NCBI RefSeq assembly: GCF_023213175.1
Contig: NZ_CP093312.1
Span: 930,001-994,000, forward strand
Length of the DNA stretch: 64,000 nt
Source of the DNA: Sulfurovum sp. XGS-02
Lineage (GTDB): Bacteria > Campylobacterota > Campylobacteria > Campylobacterales > Sulfurovaceae
Direction of reading: 5' to 3'
The first letter of the stretch is position 1. Each line of letters opens with the position of its first letter. Below are positions 13,039-41,072 of the stretch, in pieces. The notes below the pieces were generated by a model. It did no database searches and was not told the DNA's origin. It was given only the letters and a program-made list of their open reading frames with translations. The position numbers and the translations under genes were made by a program.

Positions 13039-13884
13039 TCAATAGGAATCGAATAATTCCTGTAGTTTTATTATATCATGTGTAAGAGTAACAAGGGGTT
13101 TTTGTTCATCTCCTCTTAAATGTTCCTCAAATGTTGTATGCGTATTCTTGTAAAAAATGCCTATAGGAATAGGATCATTTTCAAGTGCTTTTTGCATGGC
13201 TGAGGAGAGATCGTTATTCTTATAGCTGCTGTCGAGTTCATAAGTATTTTCATTGAACCATTTATAGGTGTTGATCTTGTTAAAGACCACACAAGGCTGA
13301 AAGACATCTACCAAGGCATACCCTTTGTGTAAAAATGCTTCTTTGAGCACCGTTTTGGCATGGGCTTGATTTCCGATATTGACACGTGATACAAAACCGG
13401 CCTTTAGCGCCAATGCAACCGAGATAGGATTGAACGGTTCATTACTGACCCCCTTTACCTGTACAGGGGATTTAAACCCTATCTGACTTGTGGGCGAGGC
13501 CTGGCCTTTGGTAAGACCATAGACCATATTGTTGTGTACGATATGTACAATATCAGGATTCCGCCTGATGGTATGCATAAAATGGTTTCCCCCTTCACCA
13601 TACATATCTCCATCACCACCTTCTGCAATGACATTGAGTGCAGGGTTGGAAGCTTTGAGCGCTGTGGATACGGGAAGTGCCCGCCCATGAAGTCCACAAA
13701 ACATATGGGTATCAATATAGTAAGGTGTTTTAGCTGCCTGCCCGATACCAGAGACGATGACTGTTTGTTTAGGGTCACATTCCAGTTCTGTCAATACCTC
13801 TTCCAGTAGTTTCAGTATCCCGAAATTCCCGCATCCGGGACACCATGCATTGTCAATATCAGTTCTATCGAGAGGGTGCTTCAT
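13039..13884 (-). CDS. 2-oxoacid:ferredoxin oxidoreductase beta subunit (KorB/OorB-like)
   Basis: This 281-residue TPP-binding subunit has WCPGCGNFGIL near the N-terminus, HGRALPVSTALKASNP, and the TPP motif GDGDMYGEGGNHFMH followed by NNMVYGLTKGQASPTS. The cysteines in CPGCG and PCVVFNK match those that bind the [4Fe-4S] cluster in OFOR beta subunits. It oxidatively decarboxylates a 2-oxoacid (probably 2-oxoglutarate) to an acyl-CoA. Its start overlaps the stop of the fused gamma-alpha gene by 4 bp. No separate ferredoxin (delta) subunit is encoded nearby. Confidence 0.92.
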   Translation of the reverse strand: MKHPLDRTDIDNAWCPGCGNFGILKLLEEVLTELECDPKQTVIVSGIGQAAKTPYYIDTHMFCGLHGRALPVSTALKASNPALNVIAEGGDGDMYGEGGNHFMHTIRRNPDIVHIVHNNMVYGLTKGQASPTSQIGFKSPVQVKGVSNEPFNPISVALALKAGFVSRVNIGNQAHAKTVLKEAFLHKGYALVDVFQPCVVFNKINTYKWFNENTYELDSSYKNNDLSSAMQKALENDPIPIGIFYKNTHTTFEEHLRGDEQKPLVTLTHDIIKLQELFDSY

Positions 13885-25687: not shown

Positions 25688-25987
25688 TATATCAACATTA
25701 TTGATATAAAGACAGTTCCAGTGTTGTTATATTGATATTTAAACATTATATAAAATAATTTTGTGCTGATTTATAAAATTTACATTTTTTCCGTCATAGT
25801 ATCTTATTACATCATAAGTCCCTATATATAGGTTATACACACCATTTAGAGTCAAAAAAACCACATCATAACAGATGATTTAAATAACTTTTTAACATAA
25901 TAATTATAATATTGAATGAATATTCAGTTATATTTAATAAAAAATAATTTATTATTGTCATAAGTTTATTATATTAAAAGGAACAAC
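25688..25987. other. AT-rich 300 bp divergent intergenic region
   Basis: It separates the Na/Pi transporter from the SQR-like/hydrogenase operon. It contains TATAAT at 25905-25910, the inverted repeat described at 25911-25928 and an AAAAGGAA RBS at the end. No ORF or RNA gene is seen in it. Confidence 0.6.
25911..25928. promoter_or_regulatory. Candidate operator O1 (TGAAT-N4-ATTCA) before the SQR/hyd operon
   Basis: The sequence ATTGAAT-GAAT-ATTCAGT has the same geometry as sites at 34343-34370, 34393-34410 and 38443-38460 (consensus AATGAAT-N4-ATTCATT), with one mismatch per arm. It directly abuts a TATAAT box, so binding would block transcription of the SQR-like and hydrogenase genes. Confidence 0.6.
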
Positions 25988-27457
25988 ATGAAAAAGCAAA
26001 AGATTGAGCACAGCAAACCGCTTATAGATCATCTGTATGGTGAAGAACAAAGTGGGATGAGTAGAAGAACGGCACTAAAAGTGATGGGTATTGGAGGTGC
26101 AGCCGGTGTTATGGGTATGGCTCCTTCTTCTATAGCAGCTGCGGAAGCAGAAGCCGGAGTCAAGAGCGACAAGAATGCAAAGATACTGGTTGTAGGTGCA
26201 GGAGCGGGGGGAATCATGGCCCTTGCAAGACTGCGTAGTGCATTACCGAATGCAGATATAACCATTATCGCACCAAATGAGAAGCATCTTTACCAGCCGG
26301 GACAGGTCTTTATAGGTGCAGGGCTTTATACCTTCGATGACATCGTTAAAGATAATAAAGATTTTATTGCAGATGATGTCAATTGGATCAAAGATGAAGT
26401 CGCTTCTTTTGACCCGGATAATAATATGGTAACTACAAGAGCAGGTGAGGAGGTCTCTTATGATTATATGGTGGTGGCAACAGGTATAGTCTACCATTAT
26501 GATTGGATCAAAGGTTTGACTGAAGATGATATCGGTAAAAACGGTATTGCTAGTGTCTATTTGAACAATCTTGAAAAAGGTACAGCAGATGGTGGTGAAA
26601 TCACATGGAAATGGTTTAACGAACTGAAAAAATCAGCTGCTTCAGGAAAAAGACCAACAGCGATCTATACAAATCCAAATACACCTATTAAATGTGGGGG
26701 AGCACCGCAAAAAATGCTCTATCTTAGTGCAGACCATTTGAAAAAAGATGGTTTGAGTGCAAATTATATTTATGCGAACAGTGGTTCGAAGCTATTTAGT
26801 ATACCTGAGATTGCAGATGCTTTACAGAAAGTACAAACAAGATATGACACGATCACTAACAAGTTCAGACATAATCTTGTTGCCATAGATGTAAAGAACA
26901 AAATGGCAACTTTTGAAGAGACCTATGAAATTAAAGGTGAGTACGATGAAGATCTAGGTGAATATGACATCTCTGAAGAGACCAGAATGGTTGATATGTC
27001 TTATGACTTTATTCATATCGTACCGCCAATGGGACCTCCTCAGGCTCTGGTTGATTCACCATTGGGTTGGCAAAAAGGTAGTGCGAAAGGCTGGCTGGAA
27101 GTAGACCAGGTCACGCTGCAGCACAGAAGATACAAAAATGTATTCGGTATGGGTGATGTCTGCGGTATACCTCTAGGTAAGACAGGAGGATCAGCAAGAC
27201 ATCATGGACCGATCGTTGTAGGTAACCTCGTTGCAGAACTGGAGGGCAAAAAACTTGAAGAAAAATTCGATGGATATACAGTGTGTCCGATGAAAGTATC
27301 CTATGGTGAGATTATTATGCCGGAATTTGGTTACAAGGGGCTCATACCAACGATACCGTTCCTGGATCCTGCAAAACCAAGATACTTCTGGTGGGCATTT
27401 GACCTTTATCAATTAAAACCGATGTACTGGTATCTGATGCTAAGAGGGTGGTTTTAG
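25988..27457 (+). CDS. Tat-exported sulfide:quinone oxidoreductase-like FAD flavoprotein
   Basis: This 489-residue protein has a Tat signal (MSRRTALKVMGIGG, residues 24-37) after an unusual 23-residue N-extension. An FAD-binding Rossmann motif follows (ILVVGAGAGGIMALARL), then NEKHLYQPGQVFIGAGL, which is typical of SQR. Candidate catalytic cysteines are in IKCGGAPQKM, and another lies in YTVCPMKVSYGEIIMPEF. The second FAD motif NVFGMGDVCGIPLGKTGGSARHHG is also present. It would oxidise sulfide to sulfur and pass electrons to quinone or cytochrome at the periplasmic membrane face. It lies 58 bp upstream of the hydrogenase genes and probably heads the operon. The exact SQR type is uncertain. 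Confidence 0.85.
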   Translation: MKKQKIEHSKPLIDHLYGEEQSGMSRRTALKVMGIGGAAGVMGMAPSSIAAAEAEAGVKSDKNAKILVVGAGAGGIMALARLRSALPNADITIIAPNEKHLYQPGQVFIGAGLYTFDDIVKDNKDFIADDVNWIKDEVASFDPDNNMVTTRAGEEVSYDYMVVATGIVYHYDWIKGLTEDDIGKNGIASVYLNNLEKGTADGGEITWKWFNELKKSAASGKRPTAIYTNPNTPIKCGGAPQKMLYLSADHLKKDGLSANYIYANSGSKLFSIPEIADALQKVQTRYDTITNKFRHNLVAIDVKNKMATFEETYEIKGEYDEDLGEYDISEETRMVDMSYDFIHIVPPMGPPQALVDSPLGWQKGSAKGWLEVDQVTLQHRRYKNVFGMGDVCGIPLGKTGGSARHHGPIVVGNLVAELEGKKLEEKFDGYTVCPMKVSYGEIIMPEFGYKGLIPTIPFLDPAKPRYFWWAFDLYQLKPMYWYLMLRGWF

Positions 27458-27515: not shown

Positions 27516-28661
27516 ATGAATGGTTTTGATGCACTCTATGCGAAAGCAAAAGATCGTATTCGTTCACTGGCTGAGTTACCTTCTAGAAAAGAAGTGTCAA
27601 TAGAAGAGATGCTGGCAAGTAAAGGTATCCAGCGACGTGACTTTATGAAGTGGGCTGCAGGTGTCACAGCGATGCTTGCATTACCGTCCCAGTTCACGCC
27701 TTTGTTTGCAGAGGCCGCAAAACTAGCAGACCGTGTACCGCTGGTCTGGCTCCATTTTGCAGAGTGTACAGGATGTAGTGAGTCGTTTATACGCTCCGAT
27801 GCACCAACGATAGATTCACTGATCTTTGATTATGTCTCTGTTGAATATCATGAAACACTTATGGCTGCATCAGGGTGGCAGGCAGAGGCTAACCTTGAAC
27901 ATGCATTAGAAGAGTATAAAGGCCGTTATGTGTTACTTGCTGAAGGCGGTATACCAACAGCAAATCATGGTAAGTATTTGACACTGGGTGCCCATGGTAC
28001 GACAGGAGTTGAGCTTATTACAAAAGCGGCTAAAAGTGCTGCAGCGATCTTTTCCATAGGTACTTGTGCGAGTTTCGGAGGTATCCAGGCAGCTGCACCT
28101 AATCCAACTGGTGCGAAAGGTGTGGACAAAGTGGTTTCACAACCGGTCATCAATGTACCAGGTTGTCCACCAAGTGCTGAAAATATAGTTGGGACGCTGA
28201 TGCACTTCTTACTCTTTGGTACACTGCCGGCACTTGATCACTACCATCGTCCAAAATGGGCTTACGGTGCGCGTATTCATGATCTCTGTGAACGTCGTGG
28301 ACATTTTGATGCCGGGGAGTTCGTAGAGAGTTTTGGTGATGAAGGTGCAAAAGAGGGATGGTGCCTCTATAAACAAGGATGTAAAGGACCTTACACTTTC
28401 AATAACTGTTCAACCGAACGGTTCAACCAGCATGTAAGTTGGCCGGTACAGGCAGGTCATGGATGTATGGGATGTTCTGAACCCGACTTTTTTGACAGCA
28501 TGGGTCCACTGCTAAAACCGCTTAATTCGCATCTTATTATGGGTGTGAATACCACCGTTGACAAGCTTGGTACAGCACTATTAACAGCAACTGTTGTGGG
28601 AATTGGAGCACATGCTGTTGCAAGTATATTTATGAATAAAAACGATGAGAAGGAAGGATAG
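27516..28661 (+). CDS. hydA: [NiFe]-hydrogenase small subunit
   Basis: The 381-residue Fe-S subunit has a Tat motif QRRDFMKWAAG (39-49) for export with the large subunit, cluster ligands starting CTGCSE (C84, C87), and later C-rich motifs GTCASFGG, VPGCPPSAEN, CKGPYTFNNC, and HGCMGCSEPDFF. The C-terminal hydrophobic helix (ALLTATVVGIGAHAVASIF) anchors it to the membrane. It passes electrons from the Ni-Fe site to the cytochrome b subunit for periplasmic hydrogen oxidation. An AAAGGAG RBS precedes it; it is followed by hydB after a 3 bp gap. Confidence 0.96.
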   Translation: MNGFDALYAKAKDRIRSLAELPSRKEVSIEEMLASKGIQRRDFMKWAAGVTAMLALPSQFTPLFAEAAKLADRVPLVWLHFAECTGCSESFIRSDAPTIDSLIFDYVSVEYHETLMAASGWQAEANLEHALEEYKGRYVLLAEGGIPTANHGKYLTLGAHGTTGVELITKAAKSAAAIFSIGTCASFGGIQAAAPNPTGAKGVDKVVSQPVINVPGCPPSAENIVGTLMHFLLFGTLPALDHYHRPKWAYGARIHDLCERRGHFDAGEFVESFGDEGAKEGWCLYKQGCKGPYTFNNCSTERFNQHVSWPVQAGHGCMGCSEPDFFDSMGPLLKPLNSHLIMGVNTTVDKLGTALLTATVVGIGAHAVASIFMNKNDEKEG

Positions 28662-28664
28662 ATT

Positions 28665-30383
28665 ATGGCTAATAAACGTGTAGTTATTGATCCGATAACA
28701 AGAATTGAAGGACATCTGCGTGTTGAAGTAGAGGTTGATGAGAACAATGTAGTGCAAAAAGCCTATTCTTCATCCACCTTATGGAGAGGGATAGAGGTTA
28801 TCCTTAAAGGACGTGATCCTCGTGATGCAGGTCTTATGGCACAACGTATTTGTGGTGTTTGTACCTATTCTCACTATAGAGCCGGTATTGAGTCTGTAGA
28901 AAATGCATTAGGTATAGAGATACCCTATAATGCAAAGCTGGTAAGGTCTCTTTTAAATGCATCTCTTTATATGCATGACCATGTTGTACACTTTTACCAT
29001 TTACACGGACTTGACTGGGTGGATGTAGTATCGGCACTCAGTGCAGATCCTGCAAAAGCGTCCAAACTGGCATTCAAATACTCTGATATGCCAATTGCAA
29101 CCGGTACAGATGAACTTACTGCTGTCCAAAAAAGAGTGAAAGAATTTGTTGATAAAGGTCAACTTGGGCCGTTTGCCAATGCATATTGGGGGAATGGTAC
29201 CTATAAATTCTCTCCGGAGCAAAACCTTATTGCACTCTCACACTATCTTAAGGCACTTGAAGTACAGCGTGTAGCAGCACAGATGTTTGCTATTTTTGGT
29301 GCGAAGCAGCCACATCCTCAAAGTCTTGTGGTGGGCGGGGTTACCTGTGTCCGTGATATCTTGAGTCCGACACGCTTATCGCAGTGGAGAGAAAAATATA
29401 AGATCGTAAAGGATTTTATCGACCGTGCCTATCAGGCAGATATCGTGATGGCTGCAGATGCATACGGAAGTGAAGAGACCGTATTGGGTGGTCTGGGAGT
29501 TAAAAACTTCCTGGCGGCTGATGAATTTGTACTTAACCGTACAGAGTATCTTTTCCAAGGCGGGTACATTAAAGACGGTGATCTCAGTCAAGTATTTGAT
29601 ATCGATGAAACGAAGATCGAGGAAGATGTGACACACGCATGGTATAAAGGGAATAATCCTCTTCATCCATATGATGGCGTTACGGATCCTGATTATACCG
29701 GTTTCATAGATGGTGATACGGTAAACGGTGAAGCAAAGATCATCAATGAAAATGAAAAATATACTTGGGTCAAAGCCCCAAGATACGGCACTGATGCGGT
29801 GGAAGTAGGTCCTCTGTCTTGTCTCCTTGTAAATTATGCCAGAGGCAATGAAAAGGTCCAGGCTGAAGTCAATGCATTTTTAAAGCACACCGGATTGCCG
29901 TTAGAAGCTCTTTTCACGACATTGGGACGTACTGCGGCGCGTATGCTGCAGACCAAACTGATCTCAGATAATGCCATTACCATATTTGATTCTTTGGTTG
30001 AAAATGTCAAAACAGATGAGAGCACCTACACTAAATTTGAGATCAACCCATCCATAGAGTATACGGGGCGTTTTATCGGTGAAGTACCTCGCGGTGTGCT
30101 CAGTCACTGGGTACGGATAAAAGACGGTGTGATCGAAAATTATCAAGCAGTAGTGCCTACCACATGGAATGCGGGACCAATGGATGCCAATGGAACGATA
30201 GGGCCGTATGAAGCATCTCTTGTAGGATTGAAACTTGAAGATCCTACTAAACCGCTTGAAGTAATCAGAGTGATTCACTCTTTTGATCCGTGTATGTCAT
30301 GTGCTGTACATGTAATAGATATGAAAGGTACAGAGATCAGTGAATTTAAAGTAAATCCTATAAGCAGCGGAGCAACTTGTTAG
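28665..30383 (+). CDS. hydB: [NiFe]-hydrogenase large subunit
   Basis: The 572-residue catalytic subunit has L1 motif RICGVCTYSH (C63, C66) and L2 motif DPCMSCAVH, the four Ni/Fe cysteines. After the L2 histidine a C-terminal peptide (VIDMKGTEISEF...) remains, to be removed by the maturation protease HydD. It oxidises H2 in the periplasm and forms the membrane-bound uptake enzyme with HydA and HydC. Length and motifs fit group 1 respiratory hydrogenases. The presence of an uncleaved tail and intact cysteines argues for a functional gene even though the nearby hyp genes are ruined. Confidence 0.97.
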   Translation: MANKRVVIDPITRIEGHLRVEVEVDENNVVQKAYSSSTLWRGIEVILKGRDPRDAGLMAQRICGVCTYSHYRAGIESVENALGIEIPYNAKLVRSLLNASLYMHDHVVHFYHLHGLDWVDVVSALSADPAKASKLAFKYSDMPIATGTDELTAVQKRVKEFVDKGQLGPFANAYWGNGTYKFSPEQNLIALSHYLKALEVQRVAAQMFAIFGAKQPHPQSLVVGGVTCVRDILSPTRLSQWREKYKIVKDFIDRAYQADIVMAADAYGSEETVLGGLGVKNFLAADEFVLNRTEYLFQGGYIKDGDLSQVFDIDETKIEEDVTHAWYKGNNPLHPYDGVTDPDYTGFIDGDTVNGEAKIINENEKYTWVKAPRYGTDAVEVGPLSCLLVNYARGNEKVQAEVNAFLKHTGLPLEALFTTLGRTAARMLQTKLISDNAITIFDSLVENVKTDESTYTKFEINPSIEYTGRFIGEVPRGVLSHWVRIKDGVIENYQAVVPTTWNAGPMDANGTIGPYEASLVGLKLEDPTKPLEVIRVIHSFDPCMSCAVHVIDMKGTEISEFKVNPISSGATC

Positions 30384-30431
30384 AATGCAAAGCAGACTTA
30401 TATTAAAAATGAATGAAAAGGAGTATGCATT

Positions 30432-31154
30432 ATGGGAAAACCGGAAGAAGAAATTGTAGAGCATCCCAGTTTTGTCTACAGCAGCATCAATAGAATTTTA
30501 CATTGGATACGGGCCATAGTTATCATAGGATTGATTGTAACAGGTTTTTATATCGCTGAGCCATTTCTGACATCTCAAGGCTCAACGGATAAACTTCTTT
30601 ATGCAGAGTGGACCAAATGGCATTTAATCTTAGGGTTTATCCTTATAGCTTCAGGAATACTCCGAATCTATCTTTTCTTTTTTGGAAAAGATACGAAAGG
30701 TGAATTGGGTTCACTTAAAGATCTATTTAGTCTAAAATCCTGGATCACTCAGTTAAAAGCTTACTTCTTTATCGGTGAATTAAAGAAAAAAGGGTTTTAC
30801 GGGCCGTTACAGTTTCTAACCTATACTGCCATAATGGTCTTGGTGGTCTTAGCTTCCCTTACGGGGTTGATACTCTATGTACATGTGTATCACTTAGGTA
30901 TAGGTGGTTGGTTATATGAACCTATGCGTGTTTTAGAAGTATGGATGGGAGGACTTGCCAATGTACGTTATATCCATCATATCACTGTGTGGGGCTATTT
31001 GATCTTCTTACCTATTCATATTTATCTGGTCATTTGGTCTGCCATACGCTTTAAACATGGTGCGATGGATGTGATGTTTACAGGATATGATTATCATTTA
31101 AGAAAAGAGAAACTGGAAAAAGAAAAAGAAAAAGTTGAAAAAGAGAAAAAGTGA
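30432..31154 (+). CDS. hydC: Hydrogenase cytochrome b subunit
   Basis: A 240-residue di-haem cytochrome b with four to five membrane helices and conserved haem histidines in HWIRAIVIIG, EWTKWHLILGF, YVHVYHLGIGG and IHHITVWGYLIFLPIHIYLV. It anchors HydAB and delivers electrons to the quinone pool. The C-terminus is a highly charged lysine/glutamate tail. It overlaps hydD by 4 bp. Confidence 0.93.
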   Translation: MGKPEEEIVEHPSFVYSSINRILHWIRAIVIIGLIVTGFYIAEPFLTSQGSTDKLLYAEWTKWHLILGFILIASGILRIYLFFFGKDTKGELGSLKDLFSLKSWITQLKAYFFIGELKKKGFYGPLQFLTYTAIMVLVVLASLTGLILYVHVYHLGIGGWLYEPMRVLEVWMGGLANVRYIHHITVWGYLIFLPIHIYLVIWSAIRFKHGAMDVMFTGYDYHLRKEKLEKEKEKVEKEKK

Positions 31155-31699
31155 AAATATTAATATTGGGTATTGGTAACCTGCTGTTCGGTGATGAAGG
31201 CATAGGTGTCCATTTTATAAAATATATAGAAGAAAAATATCAATTTGATGGAGAACATCAGATTGATACTATAGACGGCGGGACACTTGCCCAGAGGCTT
31301 ATCCCTATCATTGTAGAGTATGACCATCTGATCATTATTGATACGATCAATGCACCAGGCGTTCAAGCAGGTGAAGTCTATTTCTTTAATTTTGATGCAG
31401 TACCTGATAATGTAGATTGGCAAGGCAGTGCGCATGAAGTTGAGATGCTTCAGACACTAAATATGATGGATATGACCGGAGATCGTCCGCCGACAATGAT
31501 CATGGGTGTGGTACCGACCATTATAGAGATAACAGAGTTCTCTCTTTCTGAAGGTGTTGCTGAGGCTGTACCTTTAATGGAAAAAACGCTCTTGGAGTAT
31601 CTAAAAAAAATGAATGTGAATGCAATCAAAAAAGCTGACGTCAATATACAGTCCATACTTCCAAACTCTTTTAGGAGCCATGATGCATATAGCGTTTAA
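31151..31699 (+). CDS. hydD: Hydrogenase maturation endopeptidase
   Basis: The 182-residue HyaD/HybD-family protease has nickel-sensing ligands in their usual places: GNLLFGDEGIG (E), LIIIDTINAPG (D) and SAHEVEML (H). It clips the C-terminal peptide of HydB after nickel insertion. The 4 bp overlap with hydC and the overlap of its 3' end with the next gene show tight coupling. Compare the paralogue at 34759, which has lost two of these ligands. Confidence 0.93.
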   Translation: MKILILGIGNLLFGDEGIGVHFIKYIEEKYQFDGEHQIDTIDGGTLAQRLIPIIVEYDHLIIIDTINAPGVQAGEVYFFNFDAVPDNVDWQGSAHEVEMLQTLNMMDMTGDRPPTMIMGVVPTIIEITEFSLSEGVAEAVPLMEKTLLEYLKKMNVNAIKKADVNIQSILPNSFRSHDAYSV

Positions 31700-33491
31700 A
31701 TTTGACTATATCCATGATAATGGATTATTTACACGGTTGTTAAATCGCATACATGAACTCTCAAATATGCCGCTTTCACTTTCTGTAGAAGGTACAAGCT
31801 ACACAATAGAGGCTTCAGGTGATCAACGCACCCTGGAAACTTTGGCAGAACAGATATCTGCACTGGTTCCCCAATCTCTTTTCTTAGGCAACTACACCAT
31901 AGAAGAGGTTCATAAAGAGGAAGAAAAACAACAGAGTCCCAATAGATCATTACCAGATAACCATGTACCATTTAAAGTGCCTTACTGTCCTGAATGTCAG
32001 GAGAATGTCTCCAAGACACTCGATCCGTTTAACGCATGTTCTGTTTGCGGATTCAATGAAACATCGCTTGGCATGGGGGATCTCTTTGCATTTACGGGTA
32101 TCGAGACGCCTACAGAAGAAGCATTTTTCACACGGATGGCAGATGTTTTGATAAACACGGGCGAGCTGCGGCTGCCTACTTACAATGGTATCCGACGTTT
32201 TTCACTCTTACATGCGAACAGAGAAGAGGATGAAGGTCTACTCTTTTGTACCCCCAGCGATATTTCAGAGAAGTTTCTCATCAATCAGCTGGAATTGAAC
32301 TCACTGATGATGGTTGAGAAACCTTCTGTAAGACTGAAGCCAAAATTGATGTTCCGCAGTGAATATGAACTCAGTGAGCCTTTTTACCCTGTTTTCTTTG
32401 CGGATGACAAAATCACATTGGCACTTGCCACAGCATTAAAAAACAGAGGTATCGATGTTGTTTTTTCTGATCATGTACCGACACTTCGTGTTGCTACAGG
32501 ATTAGATGAACATTTGATTATCACAAGCGGGAGAGATATGCTACCGTGGAGTGTTCCTATGCATTTAAAACATGCTTCATTTTGCGAGTATAAAGGTTTT
32601 CAGGCTTATGGAGATGCAAACGGATTGCAGGTTGGAACAGATCTAAAGATCGATCAGCAACCCTATATACACTATGTCTCCAATGAGGAGGTCCGAGAAG
32701 TGAGTCATGCTATTCGTTTTGAACCTGCCCATGCTGCACAGCGTTCTATCGTCATAGAGCATCAGCTTCAAGATCAAGCACTTTGTGGTATACATCTTAG
32801 CCGTGAACACAGGTCCCATATCTTCTCTTTTTCCAACAAGATCGGATATACTCCTATGGTTCTCTTCAAAGATGATGCATGGACCCAACCTAGAGATATA
32901 CTTGAAGCAATAGCCTCAATGGATGAGGGAGGAATGCGTCTTGTTAATAACTATAAAAAAACGTTCCCTGGACTCTATGAGAAGATAGAAAAGTTAGAAT
33001 TCATATCACATATGGAGACTAATGGTATTATGAGGATCTGGGCATTAGCAGCTGTATTCATCGGCTTATATGAAGGTGATGATATGCGAAGGTCATGTGA
33101 AACACTTGAAGCAACCGCTATTGAATTCAGCGGTAAATCCGGCCCTCGTATCGATTATAAAGTTATTGGTACAGAAGAGGGGTATCAACTTGATCCGAGA
33201 CTTGCTATCCGGTCAGCCATGAGCTTTAAGCTTGCCGGACTTGATGATTACCTTCTTAGTTTCGGATTTATTGATTCTTTGGTTGATTTCCTTGCGAAAC
33301 ATGCAGAGGATTCTGATGCCAATGTCGGTATTAACGGGGTCACACTCAGTGGTGGACTGTTTGAAAATCGTCAATTATTGATGCGTACCTGTAAAGCTAT
33401 CGGTGTTAACTATCCTATTTACAGAAATGAACGCTTAAGCATGGATCATGCCAATATCGCCTTTGGAGCAATAACACTGGGGAATGAGTAA
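31683..33491 (+). CDS. hydE: HypF-related protein of the hyd operon (HydE-like)
   Basis: This protein of about 602 residues has the C-terminal Kae1-like region of HypF (GVTLSGGLFENRQLLMRTCKAI) and a small zinc-finger-like pair (CPECQ ... CSVCGF), but lacks the acylphosphatase domain of HypF. Its place as fifth gene after hydABCD matches the hydABCDE order of Wolinella succinogenes, where HydE is HypF-like. The start at 31683 is chosen because AGGAG lies 5 nt upstream, although ATG codons occur at 31680 and 31620; it overlaps hydD by 17 bp. Its precise role in maturation is not known to me. Confidence 0.8.
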   Translation: MHIAFKFDYIHDNGLFTRLLNRIHELSNMPLSLSVEGTSYTIEASGDQRTLETLAEQISALVPQSLFLGNYTIEEVHKEEEKQQSPNRSLPDNHVPFKVPYCPECQENVSKTLDPFNACSVCGFNETSLGMGDLFAFTGIETPTEEAFFTRMADVLINTGELRLPTYNGIRRFSLLHANREEDEGLLFCTPSDISEKFLINQLELNSLMMVEKPSVRLKPKLMFRSEYELSEPFYPVFFADDKITLALATALKNRGIDVVFSDHVPTLRVATGLDEHLIITSGRDMLPWSVPMHLKHASFCEYKGFQAYGDANGLQVGTDLKIDQQPYIHYVSNEEVREVSHAIRFEPAHAAQRSIVIEHQLQDQALCGIHLSREHRSHIFSFSNKIGYTPMVLFKDDAWTQPRDILEAIASMDEGGMRLVNNYKKTFPGLYEKIEKLEFISHMETNGIMRIWALAAVFIGLYEGDDMRRSCETLEATAIEFSGKSGPRIDYKVIGTEEGYQLDPRLAIRSAMSFKLAGLDDYLLSFGFIDSLVDFLAKHAEDSDANVGINGVTLSGGLFENRQLLMRTCKAIGVNYPIYRNERLSMDHANIAFGAITLGNE

Positions 33492-33571
33492 AAAGTAAGA
33501 TATACCTGGAAGTTACAATCCCTATTTGTTATTTTTTACTAAAATGATTGTATCAATTAGAAAGGCTTTCT

Positions 33572-34165
33572 TTGAAAATAACAGATAAAAAAGCGAAAAA
33601 ACGAGAATCTATTATACAAACGGCACTACAATTGTTCTCTGCAAACGGCTTTCATAAAACAACCATACCCGACATTGCAAAAAAGATGCATATGAGTGTA
33701 GGAAACATCTATAACTATTTTTCATCAAAAGATATTTTGGCAGGGGAGATCATTAAATACACTTCTAATGTCTTAGGAGGAGAGATACGCAAGGTTAATA
33801 TGCTTGATATCTCCTCCAAAGCCAAAATCAAAAAGATCGTAGAAGTCTATTTTGGTATGGCACAGGAACGTCCTGAAATGATCGAGTATTTTTTACGTGT
33901 TTATCTCTCTCATAGAGAAGTCTTTAAAAATGAATGTGAAGAGATGGTATGTGTCTCTGGATTTATCACTGAAATCATGATCTTCTTCAATGATGGTGTA
34001 GAATCAGGAGAGTTTAGAAATCAAGACTTTTTTTCTGCCTTTGGCCTTTTTCTAGGCTACTTGGGTGGGATGGTGTTTCTCAAAGGTGAAGGAATTCTAC
34101 CTAAAGAGATCAATGAGTATATTGATGATATTTCCTTCAATATCTATCATGCATTGAAAGTTTAG
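33572..34165 (+). CDS. TetR-family transcriptional regulator
   Basis: The 197-residue regulator carries a classical N-terminal TetR HTH: KKRESIIQTALQLFSANGFHKTTIPDIAKKMHMSVGNIYNYFSSKDIL. The C-terminal ligand domain is diverged, as usual. No ATG is available; TTG at 33572 follows AGAAAGG at 6 nt, and another TTG lies at 33548. It sits between the hyd operon and the second hydrogenase cluster. The four AATGAAT-N4-ATTCATT sites around these genes are its likely targets, though none lies before its own start. The effector is unknown. Confidence 0.88.
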   Translation: MKITDKKAKKRESIIQTALQLFSANGFHKTTIPDIAKKMHMSVGNIYNYFSSKDILAGEIIKYTSNVLGGEIRKVNMLDISSKAKIKKIVEVYFGMAQERPEMIEYFLRVYLSHREVFKNECEEMVCVSGFITEIMIFFNDGVESGEFRNQDFFSAFGLFLGYLGGMVFLKGEGILPKEINEYIDDISFNIYHALKV

Positions 34166-34342
34166 ATTGCCAAATGATACCTACACTTCTTTGGCTCTAA
34201 TCAATTATCTGCAATGGCAATGCGCGGTTCAAACTCTATAGAGGAGGCCACATTTATTTTCCGTACGTTTGACGTTTGTTCCGTTTGCACTAAAAAATAA
34301 TATAATCTTATATCAACCAATCAGATAAATATTCCAGATATC

Positions 34343-34370
34343 ATAATAATGAATGACTATTCATTATTAT
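34343..34370. promoter_or_regulatory. Candidate operator O2: perfect 12 bp-arm inverted repeat
   Basis: Two 12 bp arms (34343-34354 and 34359-34370) pair perfectly around the 4 bp centre GACT; the inner halves are AATGAAT and ATTCATT. It is the best-formed copy of the repeat family and lies 60 bp upstream of the small gene at 34430. Confidence 0.7.
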
Positions 34371-34392
34371 TTAAGTTTTCTTTTCCTATTAT

Positions 34393-34410
34393 AATGAATA
34401 GATATTCATT
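34393..34410. promoter_or_regulatory. Candidate operator O3 overlapping a -10 box
   Basis: AATGAAT-AGAT-ATTCATT, overlapping TATAAT at 34390-34395 and ending 19 bp before the ATG at 34430. The -10, operator and RBS arrangement is almost the same as at 38440-38478. Confidence 0.7.
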
Positions 34411-34429
34411 TACTATAGAAGGAGATGTT

Positions 34430-34657
34430 ATGAATACAGATAACCAAGAAGTTACAAAGGAATTATTTGAATCAGTGGATACAAAAGTAGATTCACGACA
34501 CGGTAATGAATATTATGACGATATATATGAAAGATGCAGAAAAAGCTTAGATGACTTAAACGTGCTCGAAACTTCAAAAAGAAGAGAGCATTTTCTGCAG
34601 TGCACTGAAGATGATGGGCTAATATCGTCATTGATCAATTTGGATGATGTTAACTGA
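34430..34657 (+). CDS. Small acidic hypothetical protein, 75 aa
   Basis: This is a hydrophilic, acidic protein (MNTDNQEVTKELFESVDTK ... YYDDIYERCRKSLDDL) with two cysteines and no recognised domain. The ATG at 34430 follows GAAGGAGATGTT; longer in-frame starts upstream run through the operators and are rejected. Two copies of the putative operator precede it, and it heads a cluster with a protease-like gene and hypF. A role in hydrogenase expression or maturation is only inferred from this context. Confidence 0.65.
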   Translation: MNTDNQEVTKELFESVDTKVDSRHGNEYYDDIYERCRKSLDDLNVLETSKRREHFLQCTEDDGLISSLINLDDVN

Positions 34658-34683
34658 ACTTAGGTTGCATTTAGTGAGTTTTG

Positions 34684-34703
34684 TGACGATATCGATATTG
34701 TCA
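34684..34703. other. Near-perfect 20 bp inverted repeat
   Basis: TGACGATATC and GATATTGTCA pair with a single G-T mismatch, 55 bp before the protease-like gene at 34759. It is followed by an A/T-rich stretch, not directly by a T-run, so it could be an operator or a weak terminator. Confidence 0.35.
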
Positions 34704-34758
34704 TAATAGATTAAATAAATACAAAAAAGATAACACTTTTTTTGTAAAGGAGCAAAAT

Positions 34759-35316
34759 ATGGCATATAATAAAATTGCACTCATAGGTATAGGAAATATC
34801 ATGTTTCATGATGAAGGACTTGGTGACTATCTTGTAAAATATATAGAGAATAATTATAATATTCCTGATAATTTAACGCTGGTAGAAGGTGGAACGTTGG
34901 ATTTTAGCCTCATCTCCAACTATCGTGACTTTGATCAGTTGATCGTTGTAGGTGCATCATCCCAAGAAGGTGAAACTGGAACTATATATGCTCAATCAGG
35001 GAAAGAGATGGAGATGGCACAATATGCCGTAGATCTAACAGCGAAAGAATTTGATATCTCTTTTATAGATGAAGAGGTGGATAAAATACGACATATTTCC
35101 ATGATACCGGAAAATATTATAGAAGTACGTAACGCGCTGACTGAATCTGTCTTGAGACATATGCCAAAACTTTTAGAGGTTACCCTAAAAGAGTTAAAGC
35201 ATTTTGGTATAACGCTTAACAGAACTTTTTGTAGAAAGAGATCTTTTGAAAAGATCATAGATGACTGTGCTAACAATGGAAAATTAAAACAACTTGTTTT
35301 TGCCGGTGTGAATTAG
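34759..35316 (+). CDS. Hydrogenase maturation protease paralogue lacking metal ligands
   Basis: A 185-residue HyaD-family protein by its start (ALIGIGNIMFHDEGLGDYLVKYIE) and fold pattern (NLTLVEGGTLDFSLI). The glutamate is kept, but the ligand aspartate position reads LIVVGASSQEG where HydD has LIIIDTINAPG, and the histidine region reads KEMEMAQYA where HydD has SAHEVEML. The C-terminus is extended with basic residues (NRTFCRKRSFEK). It may be an inactive paralogue acting as a chaperone or simply a decaying copy. It has a good RBS (AAAGGAG). Confidence 0.8.
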   Translation: MAYNKIALIGIGNIMFHDEGLGDYLVKYIENNYNIPDNLTLVEGGTLDFSLISNYRDFDQLIVVGASSQEGETGTIYAQSGKEMEMAQYAVDLTAKEFDISFIDEEVDKIRHISMIPENIIEVRNALTESVLRHMPKLLEVTLKELKHFGITLNRTFCRKRSFEKIIDDCANNGKLKQLVFAGVN

Positions 35317-35519
35317 GATGATACGGTACACAGCACTGGAATAGGTACTGTTTTACAGATAATAAATGTGTCCTTACCTCTGTAATCTGCCATCTTCTTC
35401 CAGCTGTCAAGTATAGATATTGATGTAGGCAGTCACTCTGTGGTAGAATACAGAAACGTTGTGTAATCAAAAAACTCTAATTAATAATAACGTTTCGATG
35501 GGAAAGGAGAATACTGTAC

Positions 35520-37739
35520 ATGTCTCATTGTACTTATAAGATCCAAATAGAAGGAACCGTACAAGGGGTTGGATTTCGACCTTTTGTCTATACGCTTGCA
35601 CATCGTTTGGGGCTTCATGGAACTGTCAGTAATAGTACGGGAGGTGTAGAGATATATGTCAATACAACGCCTTCAGAACTAGAAACGCTGCTCTCAACTA
35701 TCTATGCGGAACTGCCTCCATTGGCTGCTATTGATAAACTTATAAGTACTGAGATCGCATACAGGGATTTTCAGGATTTCAGGATCGTTACAACACAGGA
35801 AAAAGGTAGGAGGACGGTACGTATCCCCCCGGATGTCAGTATTTGCAAAGCGTGTGAATCAGAACTGTTCGATCCCGATAATCGCCGTTACGGTTATCCG
35901 TTTATTACTTGTACACATTGCGGTGTGCGTTACTCTATCATCAAGCAGCTCCCTTATGACAGAGCACAAACTTCCATGGCAGATTTTAAAATGTGTAAAG
36001 CGTGTGAAGAGGAGTATAACGATCCATTGGACAGACGATACCATGCACAGCCTATAGGGTGTTATGATTGCGGTCCTACATTAAAACTCTATAAAGGCAA
36101 AGAACTCTTAAATATCCCTCAAGATGAAATGATAGACAATACGGTTCGTTTTTTAGAAGATGGTAACATCATAGCTGTAAAAGGGGTAGGGGGCTATCAT
36201 CTTGTTTGTGATGCAACCAACGATGAAGCCGTACAGCATTTAAGAGAGCGAAAAAAAAGACCATCTAAACCGTATGCCGTCATGGTTTCAGATATAAAAT
36301 CTGCTCAATTCCTTGCTGACATGAATACTAAAGAAGAGGTTTTACTTACATCAAAGGAGAGACCTATTGTCTTGCTTAAGAGTAAAGAGAATACACAGAT
36401 ATCATCTTATGTGGCTCCTAATATTTCCCATATCGGACTTTTCCTTCCTTATACTCCCCTGCATCTGCTCTTGCTTCAGAAATTTCAACGACCTTTGGTC
36501 GCGACAAGTGCAAATGTGACCGATGAACCTATCTGCACGGATCTGGAAAGTCTGGAAAAGCTAGAGGGTATATATGACTATGTATTGGATCATAACAGGA
36601 GTATCGTTAACGGCTGTGATGATTCTGTGTTGATGGTAGTGAAAGATCAAGAGGTGATATTAAGACGTGCAAGGGGGTATGCCCCTGCTGCGCTTAAATT
36701 GCCTTTTAGATTGGAACATGATGTATTGGCTTTAGGCGCAAATCAAAAATCAACCATTGCCATAGGCTTTAACAATGAAGCAATACTCTCCCCGCATATA
36801 GGCGATCTCAATACTATAGATTCAGTGGAGTATTTTGAAAAGAACATTCAAATTTTTGAGCGTATTTATGATTTTCATCCCTCTCTTGTCATGCACGACA
36901 AACATCCCGGTTATGAGTCAACCAAATATGCATTAGCTCATTATGACAATACCCGGAGTGTGCAACATCACTATGCGCATATACTAGGGGTAATGGCAGA
37001 AAAGAAAATGGCAGAGAAAGTGCTTGGTGTAGCTTTTGACGGTACTGGATACGGTGATGACGGTACACTTTGGGGCGGAGAATTTTTGATTTGTGATCCA
37101 AAGTGCTATGAGCGTGTGGCACACATTAATCAGTTCAAACTCCTAGGGGGTGCAAAAGCAATCAAAGAGCCAAAAAGAGTGGCATTGAGCCTACTTTTTG
37201 ATCTCTATGGCCAAGAGGCTTTAACCCTAGACACTCCAGCTGTTAGAGCATTCTCATCATCAGAACTACAAACATACTATATCGCATGGGAAAAAGGTTT
37301 GAATGCACCTCTGAGTTCCTCCATAGGCAGGCTCTTTGATGCAGTGGCATCACTCACGGATGTTTGTCATGTCATGAGTTTTGAGGGAGAGAGCGGTATG
37401 CTGCTTGAAGAGCTGTATGATGAACATGTTCAAGGATACTATACTTTTACCTGCGATCAGGGTATCATAGATATTTTACCTATGGTTCAAGAGATACTCC
37501 GGGAAGAAGACAGGTCTGTGGCAGTCTCCAAATTTTTCAATACCCTTGTAGAGATGATAAAACATTTTCATACACTCTCTAAGCTTCCATTAGTACTGAG
37601 TGGCGGCGTATTTCAGAACAGGATACTTTTAGGTTTGGTGCTTGAAGCCATCCCGGAAGCGATCATTGCCAGCACTATTCCTCCCAATGACGGAGGCATA
37701 GCATTGGGGCAGATCATGGCTTCAATGAATCAAATGTAG
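35520..37739 (+). CDS. hypF: Carbamoyltransferase HypF, [NiFe]-hydrogenase maturation
   Basis: The 739-residue HypF has its full domain order: acylphosphatase (1-90, EGTVQGVGFRPFVYTLA), two zinc fingers (CKACESELF, CTHCGVRYS, CKACEEEYND, GCYDCGPTLK), YrdC-like domain (GYHLVCDATNDEAV...RPSKPYAVMV), and the Kae1-like domain (HHYAHILGVMAEKK, GVAFDGTGYGDDGT, LVLSGGVFQNRILL). It converts carbamoyl phosphate into the thiocyanate on HypE that supplies the CN ligands of the Ni-Fe site. It appears intact, while its usual partners hypA-E in this locus are degraded. Confidence 0.95.
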   Translation: MSHCTYKIQIEGTVQGVGFRPFVYTLAHRLGLHGTVSNSTGGVEIYVNTTPSELETLLSTIYAELPPLAAIDKLISTEIAYRDFQDFRIVTTQEKGRRTVRIPPDVSICKACESELFDPDNRRYGYPFITCTHCGVRYSIIKQLPYDRAQTSMADFKMCKACEEEYNDPLDRRYHAQPIGCYDCGPTLKLYKGKELLNIPQDEMIDNTVRFLEDGNIIAVKGVGGYHLVCDATNDEAVQHLRERKKRPSKPYAVMVSDIKSAQFLADMNTKEEVLLTSKERPIVLLKSKENTQISSYVAPNISHIGLFLPYTPLHLLLLQKFQRPLVATSANVTDEPICTDLESLEKLEGIYDYVLDHNRSIVNGCDDSVLMVVKDQEVILRRARGYAPAALKLPFRLEHDVLALGANQKSTIAIGFNNEAILSPHIGDLNTIDSVEYFEKNIQIFERIYDFHPSLVMHDKHPGYESTKYALAHYDNTRSVQHHYAHILGVMAEKKMAEKVLGVAFDGTGYGDDGTLWGGEFLICDPKCYERVAHINQFKLLGGAKAIKEPKRVALSLLFDLYGQEALTLDTPAVRAFSSSELQTYYIAWEKGLNAPLSSSIGRLFDAVASLTDVCHVMSFEGESGMLLEELYDEHVQGYYTFTCDQGIIDILPMVQEILREEDRSVAVSKFFNTLVEMIKHFHTLSKLPLVLSGGVFQNRILLGLVLEAIPEAIIASTIPPNDGGIALGQIMASMNQM

Positions 37740-38320
37740 CTCTCTGTTCCTCTTTCGTACTGTTAAACCTCCATTCTGCCTCTTTTAAATAGTAGATGAA
37801 CTGTTCATCGCTTACGCCTTTATATTGTAAAATAAATGTTTCGAAAAAAGTCCAGAACTTTGTGATTGTATTGTCAAATTTTTTTAGTTTTGCTACTTTG
37901 TGAAAACGCTGGTATTTTAAAAGAAGTTTATTCCCTTGATCATTTGTATCATAGTCAAAATACTGAATTGTCGGCATCATCAGATTATAGACCTTCCCTT
38001 CATACGAAAGTGTCAAAAAGTGTTGCAGTTTATCTATATTTTTATCATTCTTTTTCAGGCTCTTGGGAAGGTATAGGTATTCATCATACTCATCAATTTT
38101 ATCTGTATTTTGTCTGTATTTCCTGTCACAATACAAAGTGATTATTTTCCTGAATTTTTGATAATATTTCTGTATGGTGTAAATATGCATACCTGTCAGT
38201 TTGGAAGCTTCTCTCGCATTTGCCCCTCCTGAATAAAAATAGATAAGACCTTTTGTTCCTTTTCAATTTTTCCGGGACTGAATTTCCGCAGGCATTTGGT
38301 TCATTTACGCAGCCTGTCTC
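37714..38320 (-). pseudogene. Degraded IS1595-like transposase
   Basis: The frame of 37714-38190 gives 158 residues resembling the C-terminal part of ISXO2/IS1595 transposases: KIDEYDEYLYLP for the catalytic acidic motif, FDNTITKFWTFFETFIL, and the signature end QFIYYLKEAEWRFNST. Upstream the frame continues in the HTH-like ANAREASKLTGMHIYTIQKYY, but is closed by a TGA, and the zinc-finger-like start (ACGNSVPEK...) lies in another frame. So it is frameshifted and 5'-degraded. It sits at the end of hypF, overlapping its last 26 bp. Confidence 0.6.
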
Positions 38321-38442
38321 CAAGTAGATAGGTTTGTGAATGATGACAGTAAATACATTTAATGATATATTATATATTTTAGTCCTTAAAATAGATTAGA
38401 AATCACTTTTTTAATACTGAATTAATAATTATAGACTATTAT

Positions 38443-38460
38443 AATGAATATATATTCACT
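38443..38460. promoter_or_regulatory. Candidate operator O4 before the nickel transporter
   Basis: AATGAAT-ATAT-ATTCACT, one mismatch from the consensus, overlapping TATAAT at 38440-38445 and 17 bp before the ATG at 38478. The arrangement mirrors O3. Confidence 0.65.
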
Positions 38461-38477
38461 TTTATGAAGGAGATGAA

Positions 38478-39116
38478 ATGGAACTGTCATTACTGGTGAT
38501 ATTTTGGTATGGAATTCTACATGCGTTCGGACCGGATCATCTTACCGCTATCGCTGATTTCTCCATAGGGAAAAACAGACAAAAGACCTTGTTGATCACA
38601 ACACTCTTTGCCATAGGGCACGGGCTTAGTCTTTTTATATTTGCAAAGTTACTTCAACATACTGATATCTCTTCAGAGATATTGGCTTACGGTGATGTGA
38701 TCTCTGCCACTGTGATCATTACTATAGGGGTCTACCTTCTTTTTATGGTGATAACCAATCGTATTCACTTACATAAACATATGCATGAAAATAAAGAACA
38801 TATACATATTTGGTTTGGAAAATCTCATGAACATGATGCGATAGAAAACTCCTCTTCCTTTTCATTGGGCCTCTTGATGGGAGCGGGAGGAGTCAGAGGA
38901 ATGCTGATCACACTGGGTGCAGTACAGGGTGGTACAGTAGATTTGAGTATGGTAGCTCTCTTTACATTGGGCGTGATGCTTGTATTTATAGCATTTGGGG
39001 TCCTTATGCTCTATGTGAACAAGAGCTTTTTGGGGAATCTTACAAATGTCAGAAGGGCATTTATAACGGCAGGAACAGTTTCACTGCTTGTCGGAACAAA
39101 TATATTATTTGGATAA
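38478..39116 (+). CDS. NiCoT-type nickel/cobalt transporter
   Basis: This 212-residue membrane protein has about six helices. The hallmark HAFGPDHLTAI (H15, D20, H21; HX4DH motif of nickel/cobalt transporters) is in helix 1. A histidine-rich loop (HLHKHMHENKEHIHIWFGKSHEHD) lies mid-protein, and GLLMGAGGVRGMLITLGA follows. It probably supplies nickel for hydrogenase maturation. The RBS AAGGAGATGAA precedes it, and operator O4 suggests co-regulation with the hydrogenase genes. It is followed after 9 bp by the remains of hypB, so it likely headed a nicoT-hypBCDEA operon. Confidence 0.88.
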   Translation: MELSLLVIFWYGILHAFGPDHLTAIADFSIGKNRQKTLLITTLFAIGHGLSLFIFAKLLQHTDISSEILAYGDVISATVIITIGVYLLFMVITNRIHLHKHMHENKEHIHIWFGKSHEHDAIENSSSFSLGLLMGAGGVRGMLITLGAVQGGTVDLSMVALFTLGVMLVFIAFGVLMLYVNKSFLGNLTNVRRAFITAGTVSLLVGTNILFG

Positions 39117-39125
39117 AGAAGAAAA

Positions 39126-39341
39126 ATGTGTACAGATTGCGGATGCACGATTACAGAGAGTGCAGTGACCGTAGGAGATTATGTTTTAATTCATATCGGT
39201 TTTGTGATGAACAAGATAGATGAAAAAGAGGCATTGGCTTCAATAGAGAACTACAGGGAGATACTCGAACTCATGGATGATAATGAGAGGGAACGGGCAA
39301 TCCTGGATGATGATGAATGTCCCGACAGGGGTCTCCTATGA
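39126..39341 (+). pseudogene. hypB-hypC deletion chimera
   Basis: The 71-residue ORF begins MCTDCGCTIT, the nickel-binding-type start of HypB (MCxxCGC), and continues TVGDYVLIHIGFVMNKIDEKEALASIEN with the C-terminal half of HypC and its acidic tail ending DDDECPDR. The whole HypB GTPase and the HypC N-terminus (MCLxxP) are absent. The simplest explanation is one in-frame deletion of roughly a kilobase joining hypB codon ~10 to the middle of hypC. The product cannot do either job. Confidence 0.8.
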
Positions 39342-39674
39342 CATTAAAGAGAAATAACCTTTATCAAAATAAGGTAAACACCAGTGATTAAATAAAATTG
39401 GAATTGAAACATTTATATGAGAATTTCAGGAATGCCAAACAATAAAAACTTATGCTAAGATCTTCGTAGACGATTCAGTGGGCATACTCATACGATCATG
39501 AAATTCGGTCTTCCTCAGCTTATGCCTGAAAATATCAATTTCATACATGAACCCGGCAGTAGGTCAGAATTTGAAATAGACGATATACACTATACCTGTA
39601 AAGAGTGTGAGAGCTTGGATGTAAAGGTGATCGACGGTGAAGAGATGTATCTCATGAGCTTGGAAATGGAATAG
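39338..39674 (+). pseudogene. hypD-hypA deletion and frameshift remnant
   Basis: Starting at an ATG overlapping the previous stop (the usual hypC-hypD coupling), fragments of HypD occur in three frames: LELKHLYENFRNAK (from 39398), TIKTYAKIFVDD (from about 39439) and GHTHTIMKFGLPQLMPENI (39480 on), which is the HypD CGGHTHxI region. That last frame runs straight into SEFEIDDIHYTCKECESLDV...MYLMSLEME with a stop at 39672, which is the C-terminus of HypA. HypD's remainder, all of HypE and most of HypA are missing. Confidence 0.8.
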
Positions 39675-39719
39675 ATCAAAAATCGGTATTATTTCCGTTT
39701 CAGACCTATCTCAACATAT

Positions 39720-41072
39720 CTACACTATATGACTCCAAAATGATCGTGCTACCGCTACGATAAGTAAAATACCCAAAATATTAAAGATGATACCGTACGA
39801 TGCCATGGTTTTGACCGAAACTGCACCTGAGCTCATCGCTATCGCATTAGGCGGGGTGGCGATAGGAAGCATAAACGCATACGAAGCGCAGACCGTCGCG
39901 ACCATCATGATCAGTGTTGCATCCATACTTGTTTGTTCAGCTACCTTATAGAGAATAGGGAGCATGATAGATATAAGTGCTGTATTGCTTGTGATCTCTG
40001 TCGTAAAGGTTATCATTGTAGCAACGATAAGTAAGAACAGGATCATAGGCATATTCGCGAAGCCCATGAGATGTGAAGCAATCTCTTCGGCCATACCTGT
40101 CTTGGTGACTGCTGCAGCTATTGCAAACCCTGCACCAAAAAGAAACATGATACGGTAGGGAATACTCCCTTTGTCTGTCATCCACTCCAAAATCGAAAAA
40201 GGCGGGGAAAAAAGGAGCAATCCTGCTGCAAGCAGTATACCTGGTTCACTCAACCCCAATCCATTATAATAGGGTTTAATAGGAGCATTGACCAAAAGCA
40301 GCATGATCAACCCGGAGAGAAGGTAGACTACTTTCTTTTGATCGGGATTAAGCGTTTTGTTGCTGAGATCTGCTTCTATATACAGATTTTTAACACCCAC
40401 TCCCAGTATATACCCCACTGCTATAAACATCATTAGAACCAATGGTGCGACCATATACATCCACTGTACAAAAGGGATAGCCTCCATTCCCATCTCTTCC
40501 ATGATACCCAAAAGTATCAGGTTAGGCGGCGTACCGATAGGTGTCAATATACCTCCGATGCTTGCCCCATAGGCTATACTTAAAGCAAAACGCATTTTAA
40601 GTTTGGGATCTTCTGTCAAAAAGAGTGCAATAGGAAGCAGGAGAAGGGTGGTAGTGGTATTGGAAAGTATAGAGCTTAAAAGGCCGGATGTGATGATCAA
40701 TGCGAAAATAATACCTCTAACAGAGTTTGGAAAAAGATACAACATTCTACTTGCTATCACTTTGTGGAGCCCTGTTTTCTCTACAGCAATCGCGATAAGA
40801 AAACCACCTAGAAAAAGATAGATGATAGGATTGGCATAATTGACAGCCGTCTCTTTCGTCGACAAGACACCGGTAGCAGGGAAAAGGACGATTGGAAGCA
40901 ATGAAACCACAGCCAAAGGTAATCCTTCATTCGTCCACAGTGTCACCATCAGTACTATCACAGTAACCATAAGAGACTGTTCGAGTGTAAAAAATGCGAT
41001 CATCATCCCAAATGCTATCACCCCCAATAAAAGTGCTATGAATATTTTATTTGTATCTTTAGCCTTTGGCAT
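39720..41072 (-). CDS. DASS/SLC13-family anion or dicarboxylate transporter
   Basis: This 450-residue membrane protein has about eleven helices and two substrate/sodium-site signatures: LSNTTTTLLLLPIA ... GASIGGILTPIGTPPNLI in the first half and TSNTALISIMLPI ... CASYAFMLPIATPPNAIAMSSG in the second. These proteins import dicarboxylates or sulfate with sodium. The substrate cannot be read from sequence. It is alone, and convergent with the hyp remnants. Confidence 0.9.
   Translation of the reverse strand: MPKAKDTNKIFIALLLGVIAFGMMIAFFTLEQSLMVTVIVLMVTLWTNEGLPLAVVSLLPIVLFPATGVLSTKETAVNYANPIIYLFLGGFLIAIAVEKTGLHKVIASRMLYLFPNSVRGIIFALIITSGLLSSILSNTTTTLLLLPIALFLTEDPKLKMRFALSIAYGASIGGILTPIGTPPNLILLGIMEEMGMEAIPFVQWMYMVAPLVLMMFIAVGYILGVGVKNLYIEADLSNKTLNPDQKKVVYLLSGLIMLLLVNAPIKPYYNGLGLSEPGILLAAGLLLFSPPFSILEWMTDKGSIPYRIMFLFGAGFAIAAAVTKTGMAEEIASHLMGFANMPMILFLLIVATMITFTTEITSNTALISIMLPILYKVAEQTSMDATLIMMVATVCASYAFMLPIATPPNAIAMSSGAVSVKTMASYGIIFNILGILLIVAVARSFWSHIV

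Follow-up and report, generated by a model that had tools for sequence, protein, structure and literature searches.

Ralstonia eutropha (Cupriavidus necator) H16 carries two sets of hydrogenase maturation genes, hyp1 and hyp2 (PMC5350229, citing Wolf et al. 1998). HypF1 of this organism is truncated and was found to be inactive, and the soluble hydrogenase reportedly needs hypA2, hypB2 and hypF2, with roles also for hypC1, hypD1 and hypE1. Duplication-degeneration-complementation, or reciprocal gene loss, has been described for split Hodgkinia lineages (PMC10287537). We found no specific literature on hyp duplication in Sulfurovum. Here we describe a locus of Sulfurovum sp. XGS-02 at which fragments of a hyp operon, on the comparisons set out below, close off the 3' side of an eroded type 1 hydrogenase cluster that is redundant in this genome, being its second. 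It is very likely, in our judgement, that deletions wore this cluster down and that hypF and hypBCDEXA were lost reciprocally at two loci of the same genome.

Fragments of a hyp operon and the intact operon of locus 1

The stretch analysed, referred to as the window, covers 64,000 nucleotides (C1:930001-994000) of a genome that consists of one contig of 2,193,079 bases and is estimated to be 99.8% complete; features lie on the plus strand unless stated otherwise. Profile and homology searches found fragments of hypB, hypC, hypD and hypA at 39126-39674, in operon order and on one strand, with no fragment of hypE or hypX left in this remnant. An ORF of 71 aa (39126-39341) passes from about 13 HypB codons (codons 1-13, 39126-39164, starting MCTDCGC and recognised by homology) in the same frame into HypC codons 40-96 (39165-39341), which were recognised by homology and by the profiles PF01455 (E=2e-9) and TIGR00074 (E=3e-11). 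Contiguous with the hypC piece is a first hypD 5' end (MTLKRNNLYQN, 39338-39370; blastn to L003:10066-10098), and homology further identifies a second, frameshifted hypD 5' end (codons 2-27, 39398-39477) and a fragment with hypD codons 43-69 (39480-39560). The HypD pieces at 39398-39477 and 39480-39557 are in different frames, and hypD has a 42-bp gap relative to the intact operon of locus 1 described below. A second ORF, of 58 aa (39498-39674), joins a HypD piece (positions 48-68 of the TIGR00075 profile) to the last 35 HypA codons; the hypA 3' fragment (codons 78-113, 39564-39674) has 85% nucleotide identity to the type 1 hypA of the related genome G077, and the HypA part of the ORF matches PF01155 (E=5e-5). 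The hypD 5' end is thus represented twice, at 39338-39370 and 39398-39477, about 60 bp apart and with differing sequences, as would be left by a short duplication or by a recombination event.

Absent from the remnant are the HypB GTPase, the N-terminal cysteine of HypC, most of HypD, all of HypE and the N-terminus of HypA, and conserved HypD residues are altered (GPGC to EPGS). None of hypA, hypB, hypC, hypD and hypE is present at full length at 39126-39674, and what is left, homology to hypB, hypC, hypD and hypA in operon order with the catalytic and metal-binding parts gone, is a pseudogene remnant. The hypB-hypC and hypD-hypA ORFs would be deletion chimeras without function. Might the HypB-HypC chimera nevertheless be a working small protein, with a CxxCGC metal-binding head and a HypC tail? 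It is in frame with an intact start, comes after the nicO-like gene in the same operon, and its HypC part retains 82% amino acid identity with a dN/dS of about 0.18, so that selection on the chimera is possible. However, this dN/dS comes from a short fragment and is above the 0.07-0.13 of intact pairs, the protein has neither the HypC N-terminal cysteine nor the HypB GTPase, and the adjoining hypD pieces are frameshifted. Moreover, with a 641-bp stretch as query, neither the B-C nor the D-A junction was found in any other of 78 genomes of the genus, and those genomes that match both junction pieces have them at ordinary operon spacing. We therefore regard a working chimera as extremely improbable and continue to treat both ORFs as presumptive products of deletion.

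The whole genome was searched family by family for hyp genes. Intact single copies were found of hypB (C1:361135), hypC (361775), hypD (362113), hypE (363219) and hypA (365850), and the further matches for hypD, hypA and hypC were the window remnants. The intact genes share one operon (C1:360.9-366.2 kb; locus 1), 0.6 Mb from the window, in the order HTH gene, nicO, hypB, hypC, hypD, hypE, hypX, hypA, and all five of the products HypA to HypE score above the curated NCBIfam cut-offs. The window pieces share order and strand with this operon and have nucleotide identities to it of 82% for hypC (206 bp, E 1e-53), 81% for hypD (81 bp, E 8e-17) and 72% for hypA (102 bp, E 3e-9), a likeness that far exceeds chance. 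At locus 1 a block of cys (sulfate-assimilation) genes separates the hypF site from the nicO-hyp operon (L003:10-7126, corresponding to C1:352-359 kb); the same block is present in G077 (L147:8810-14731), and several other relatives keep hypF near nicO.

The divergence of the two copies also bears on the possibility that the assembler dropped parts of a normal hypBCDEXA operon. Genome quality is judged here from completeness and contamination estimates alone, which leaves some room for a misassembly. Yet the pieces differ by 18-28% from the one other hyp operon of the genome and so cannot be a merger of the two copies, they have frameshifts of their own and have lost conserved residues such as those of the HypD GPGC motif, similar deletions occur further upstream, and the genome is a single, nearly complete contig. 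An assembly collapse is thus most unlikely, and we take the fragments as a genuine remnant.

A candidate origin of the fragments from the resident type 2 genes was rejected, the hypC, hypA and hypD pieces sharing 58-73% amino acid identity with type 2 and 70-96% with type 1 proteins; by this measure the fragments are of the type 1 lineage. Because this is the lineage of locus 1, the parental operon was most likely hypB-C-D-E-X-A, with hypX lost together with hypE. Much of the first-pass annotation of this stretch is borne out by these results: an ORF starting like HypB and ending like HypC, HypD pieces in several frames running into the end of HypA, and a deletion in place that kept the gene order and removed every catalytic part. 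Its order B-C-D-(E)-A is correct for the fragments, and needs to be extended by hypX for the parental operon. The parent that it proposed to seek in related Sulfurovum loci is found in the type 1 cluster, that of locus 1 and of G077, which matches every fragment.

The type 1 cluster at 33548-39683 and its surroundings

Comparison of 33300-39800 with locus 1 and with G077 by tblastx and blastn gave roughly twelve anchors, whose order and strand are the same throughout against both references, and 33548-39683 is colinear with the type 1 hydrogenase cluster of about 27 kb that is found at locus 1 and in related Sulfurovum. The damage had previously been described as the collapse of a hyp operon; this is true of its 3' end, but the erosion reaches upstream to 33.5 kb and comprises about six large deletions, some 13 kb in all, which removed not only hypBCDEXA but also sensor and structural hydrogenase genes. 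Relative to locus 1 about 2.05, 0.9, 3.6, 2.1, 0.87 and 3.8 kb are missing, a count that depends on the reference, since insertions present in locus 1 and in G077 (cys genes, a PAS gene) are absent from other relatives. Kept in the window are tetR, hypF, the NicO-like transporter gene and two promoters.

The cluster begins with an intact tetR gene (33548-34165; 77% amino acid identity to the locus 1 tetR, PF00440), followed by a 5' fragment of about 14-20 codons of a sensor-type hydrogenase small subunit (34169-34221; tblastx and blastn to L011:3735-3791) and the last 28 or so codons of the sensor-type large subunit (34217-34300; aligned with L011:5839-5922). The deletion junction between them lies at about 34217, inside GCAATGGCAATG, and a GCAATG microhomology at this first junction is suggestive; the remaining junctions were compared at 70-80% identity. 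Sequence comparison then identifies the promoter region that precedes type 1 hydA, with two palindromes (34350-34408), and a 5' fragment of this small-subunit gene (34418-34621, within an ORF at 34349-34657) that keeps the first 56 or so codons and matches the hydA start of L011 and G077 (tblastx, 34-44% over 68 codons). The second gap, of 0.9 kb, could have arisen by recombination between two similar promoters. Next come a divergent hydrogenase maturation protease gene, prot2, with a short internal deletion (34759-35316; 57% amino acid identity to locus 1, PF01750, TIGR00072) and the last 29-36 or so codons of type 1 hydE (35430-35539; aligned with locus 1 13538-13646), which encodes a HypF-like protein of 641 aa. 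Downstream of hypF (35520-37739), a zinc-ribbon/HTH gene, which in type 1 clusters is divergent from nicO, lies on the minus strand (37714-38363); it is frameshifted, its two frames matching one 211-aa protein, and has a long end branch in the tree. The nicO-like transporter gene (38478-39116) is intact, with 84% amino acid identity to the locus 1 copy and a dN/dS of about 0.1. Its product scores 19.4 bits against a PF03824 (NicO) gathering score of 27.7; it has an HX4DH-like motif (HAFGPDH) and fitting neighbours, so nickel transport is putative and the protein may form a subfamily of its own. A nicO-like gene directly before hypB is seen in many Campylobacterota.

The cluster lies behind hydABCDE (27516-33491), an intact, resident type 2 uptake hydrogenase whose large subunit shares 76-90% amino acid identity with those of 10 further loci in the genus. 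Both hydE products are HypF-like, with 623 aa in the window (31620-33491) and 641 aa at locus 1 (L011:11723-13648); in the window hydE only a carbamoyltransferase-like C-terminal part was recognised. In relatives hydABCDE is directly followed by hypF-nicO-hypBCDEA: G077, G066, G027 (Sulfurovum sp. AR), G003 and G010 have the same hydABCDE and then an intact type 2 hyp block, which includes nicO in four of the five and is followed within the stretch retrieved, again in four of five, by the same transporter gene. Synteny with these relatives is lost at the hydE stop (33491-33496) and is restored directly behind the end of hypA, at an anion transporter gene (39717-41072, minus strand; 89-93% amino acid and 83-85% nucleotide identity to relatives). 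The type 1 cluster thus stands exactly at the place of the relatives' type 2 hypF-nicO-hypBCDEA.

How it came to be there can be outlined tentatively. Tests of a recent duplication of the genome's own locus 1 spoke against it, since tetR and nicO are nearly as distant from their locus 1 copies as type 1 genes are between species; an old duplication or a transfer, either of them, is the more likely source. The original cluster would have comprised tetR, the sensor hydrogenase, hydABC, the protease gene, hydE, hypF, the HTH gene, nicO and hypBCDEXA; it would have replaced the resident hypF-nicO-hypBCDEA behind hydABCDE and then suffered about six large deletions and small indels, an order of events that we infer from the comparisons. 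The nicO trees place the window copy near type 2 locus copies, and parts of the segment may therefore have been exchanged by recombination. Two further loci, L159 (G061:C43) and L060 (G039:C36), mix maturation blocks of both types, with either type 1 hypC/hypD behind type 2 hydABCDE-hypF or type 2 hypCDEA behind a type 1-like hypF; such hybrids suggest that maturation blocks were exchanged between cluster types more than once.

Complementary losses and shared palindromes

The hypF gene of the window is intact and is the only full-length copy of the genome (TIGR00143, 809.6 bits against a cut-off of 466.1). At locus 1, hypF is reduced to a remnant of 120 codons (L011:14480-14836) that has no start, contains one stop and has a changed zinc-finger cysteine; in G077, whose genes are arranged alike, the hypF at the corresponding place is intact. 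Each locus therefore lacks a gene that the other keeps, remnants are present at both, and the genome has no second intact copy of any of the six core hyp genes. Did locus 1 lose its own hypF, or was the gene transferred from there into the window by ectopic recombination? A move of this kind is conceivable, given related clusters at both loci and the signs of exchange between types in nicO and hypB. However, the locus 1 remnant is closer to the locus 1-type hypF of G077 (73% amino acid identity, dS 0.65) than to the window copy (61%, dS 2.08), and we consider a move unlikely. Being nearest to the intact hypF of G077, the remnant points to locus 1 having lost its own hypF. In the hypF tree the window copy groups with the type 1 copy of G077 (support 96/97).

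On gene content, a complete maturation set is obtained only from both loci combined. NiFe hydrogenase maturation would thus use HypA, HypB, HypC, HypD and HypE of locus 1 together with HypF of the window, which presumably serves maturation because the hypF of locus 1 is gone; Hyp proteins from both loci would then cooperate. The first-pass annotation had rightly seen hydABCDE, hypF and the transporter as intact, and had left a choice between a second hyp set elsewhere, which the genome search has found, and a newly dead hydrogenase. That the whole system is dead through broken maturation would fit the destruction of the hyp genes that adjoin the window hydrogenase. Against this, hypABCDE is complete at locus 1, hypF is intact in the window and hydABCDE reads as full-length ORFs, so that this reading is very unlikely and the window hydrogenase system need not be dead.

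Copies of a palindrome, TGAAT-N4-ATTCA, lie at window positions 34350, 34395 and 38445 and at C1:341991, 342925 and 360302. With an upstream TAT, as TATNNTGAATNNNNATTCA, it has five matches in the genome, each of them ahead of a gene in one of the two clusters; the reversed control gave no match. The operator-like site at 38445-38458 starts 38 bp before the nicO start codon, and in many other species the palindrome is kept 34-39 bp before nicO. The confinement of the motif to the clusters at a fixed distance from starts, together with the adjacent tetR, suggests a shared regulon: the palindrome is likely a TetR operator, for which it is a candidate, one TetR regulon likely spans both loci, and TetR would bind the palindromes. 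A further exact palindrome core (25913-25926) is found some 60 bp ahead of an ORF for an oxidoreductase of the FAD/sulfide-quinone type (25988-27457), which directly precedes hydABCDE.

In the window the former hydA promoter, with its leader, now immediately precedes the protease gene and hypF. We infer that this promoter reads through into hypF, a possible reason for its retention. What survives, namely tetR, the promoters with their operators, hypF and nicO, probably makes up a slimmed helper locus. That selection shaped the deletions themselves towards a TetR-controlled helper, keeping operators, hydA leader, hypF and nicO and making a metal-binding chimera, is a much stronger claim, to which we give very little credence.

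Comparison with known systems

Sulfurovum sp. AR and its kin (L066/L046, L051, L149/L150, L151) share with the window the position, hydABCDE and the flanking transporter gene, with an intact hypF and hypBCDEA of the other lineage (about 50-65% amino acid identity for hypF, hypC, hypD, hypE and hypA), whereas the window has a collapsed type 1 set instead. The type 1 clusters of G077 (L154, L147, L148) and of locus 1 (L011, L003) have the gene order, and the sequence, of every window fragment; they are intact except for the locus 1 hypF, whereas the window misses about 13 kb.

Neither hydrogenase cluster is self-sufficient in its gene content, and the two are tied together in that one keeps hypF and the other hypABCDE. 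The neighbourhood alone is therefore insufficient for calling a hydrogenase dead. Can Hyp proteins of different lineages cooperate? This genome offers a natural test. R. eutropha (PMC5350229) is alike in having two clusters, one truncated hypF and a working set that combines genes of both, the cooperation being presumptive in our case. It differs in that its second set is a partial duplicate with most genes intact, whereas here one locus has only hypBCDA fragments and the other a hypF fragment. As in Hodgkinia (PMC10287537), redundant copies have shed different genes, so that completeness is reached only by combining them; unlike there, the copies share a single genome and the unit affected is a maturation operon. 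Taken together, the locus is a well-preserved new example of operon-level complementary decay, with remnants at both loci, of a known process rather than of a new type of system.
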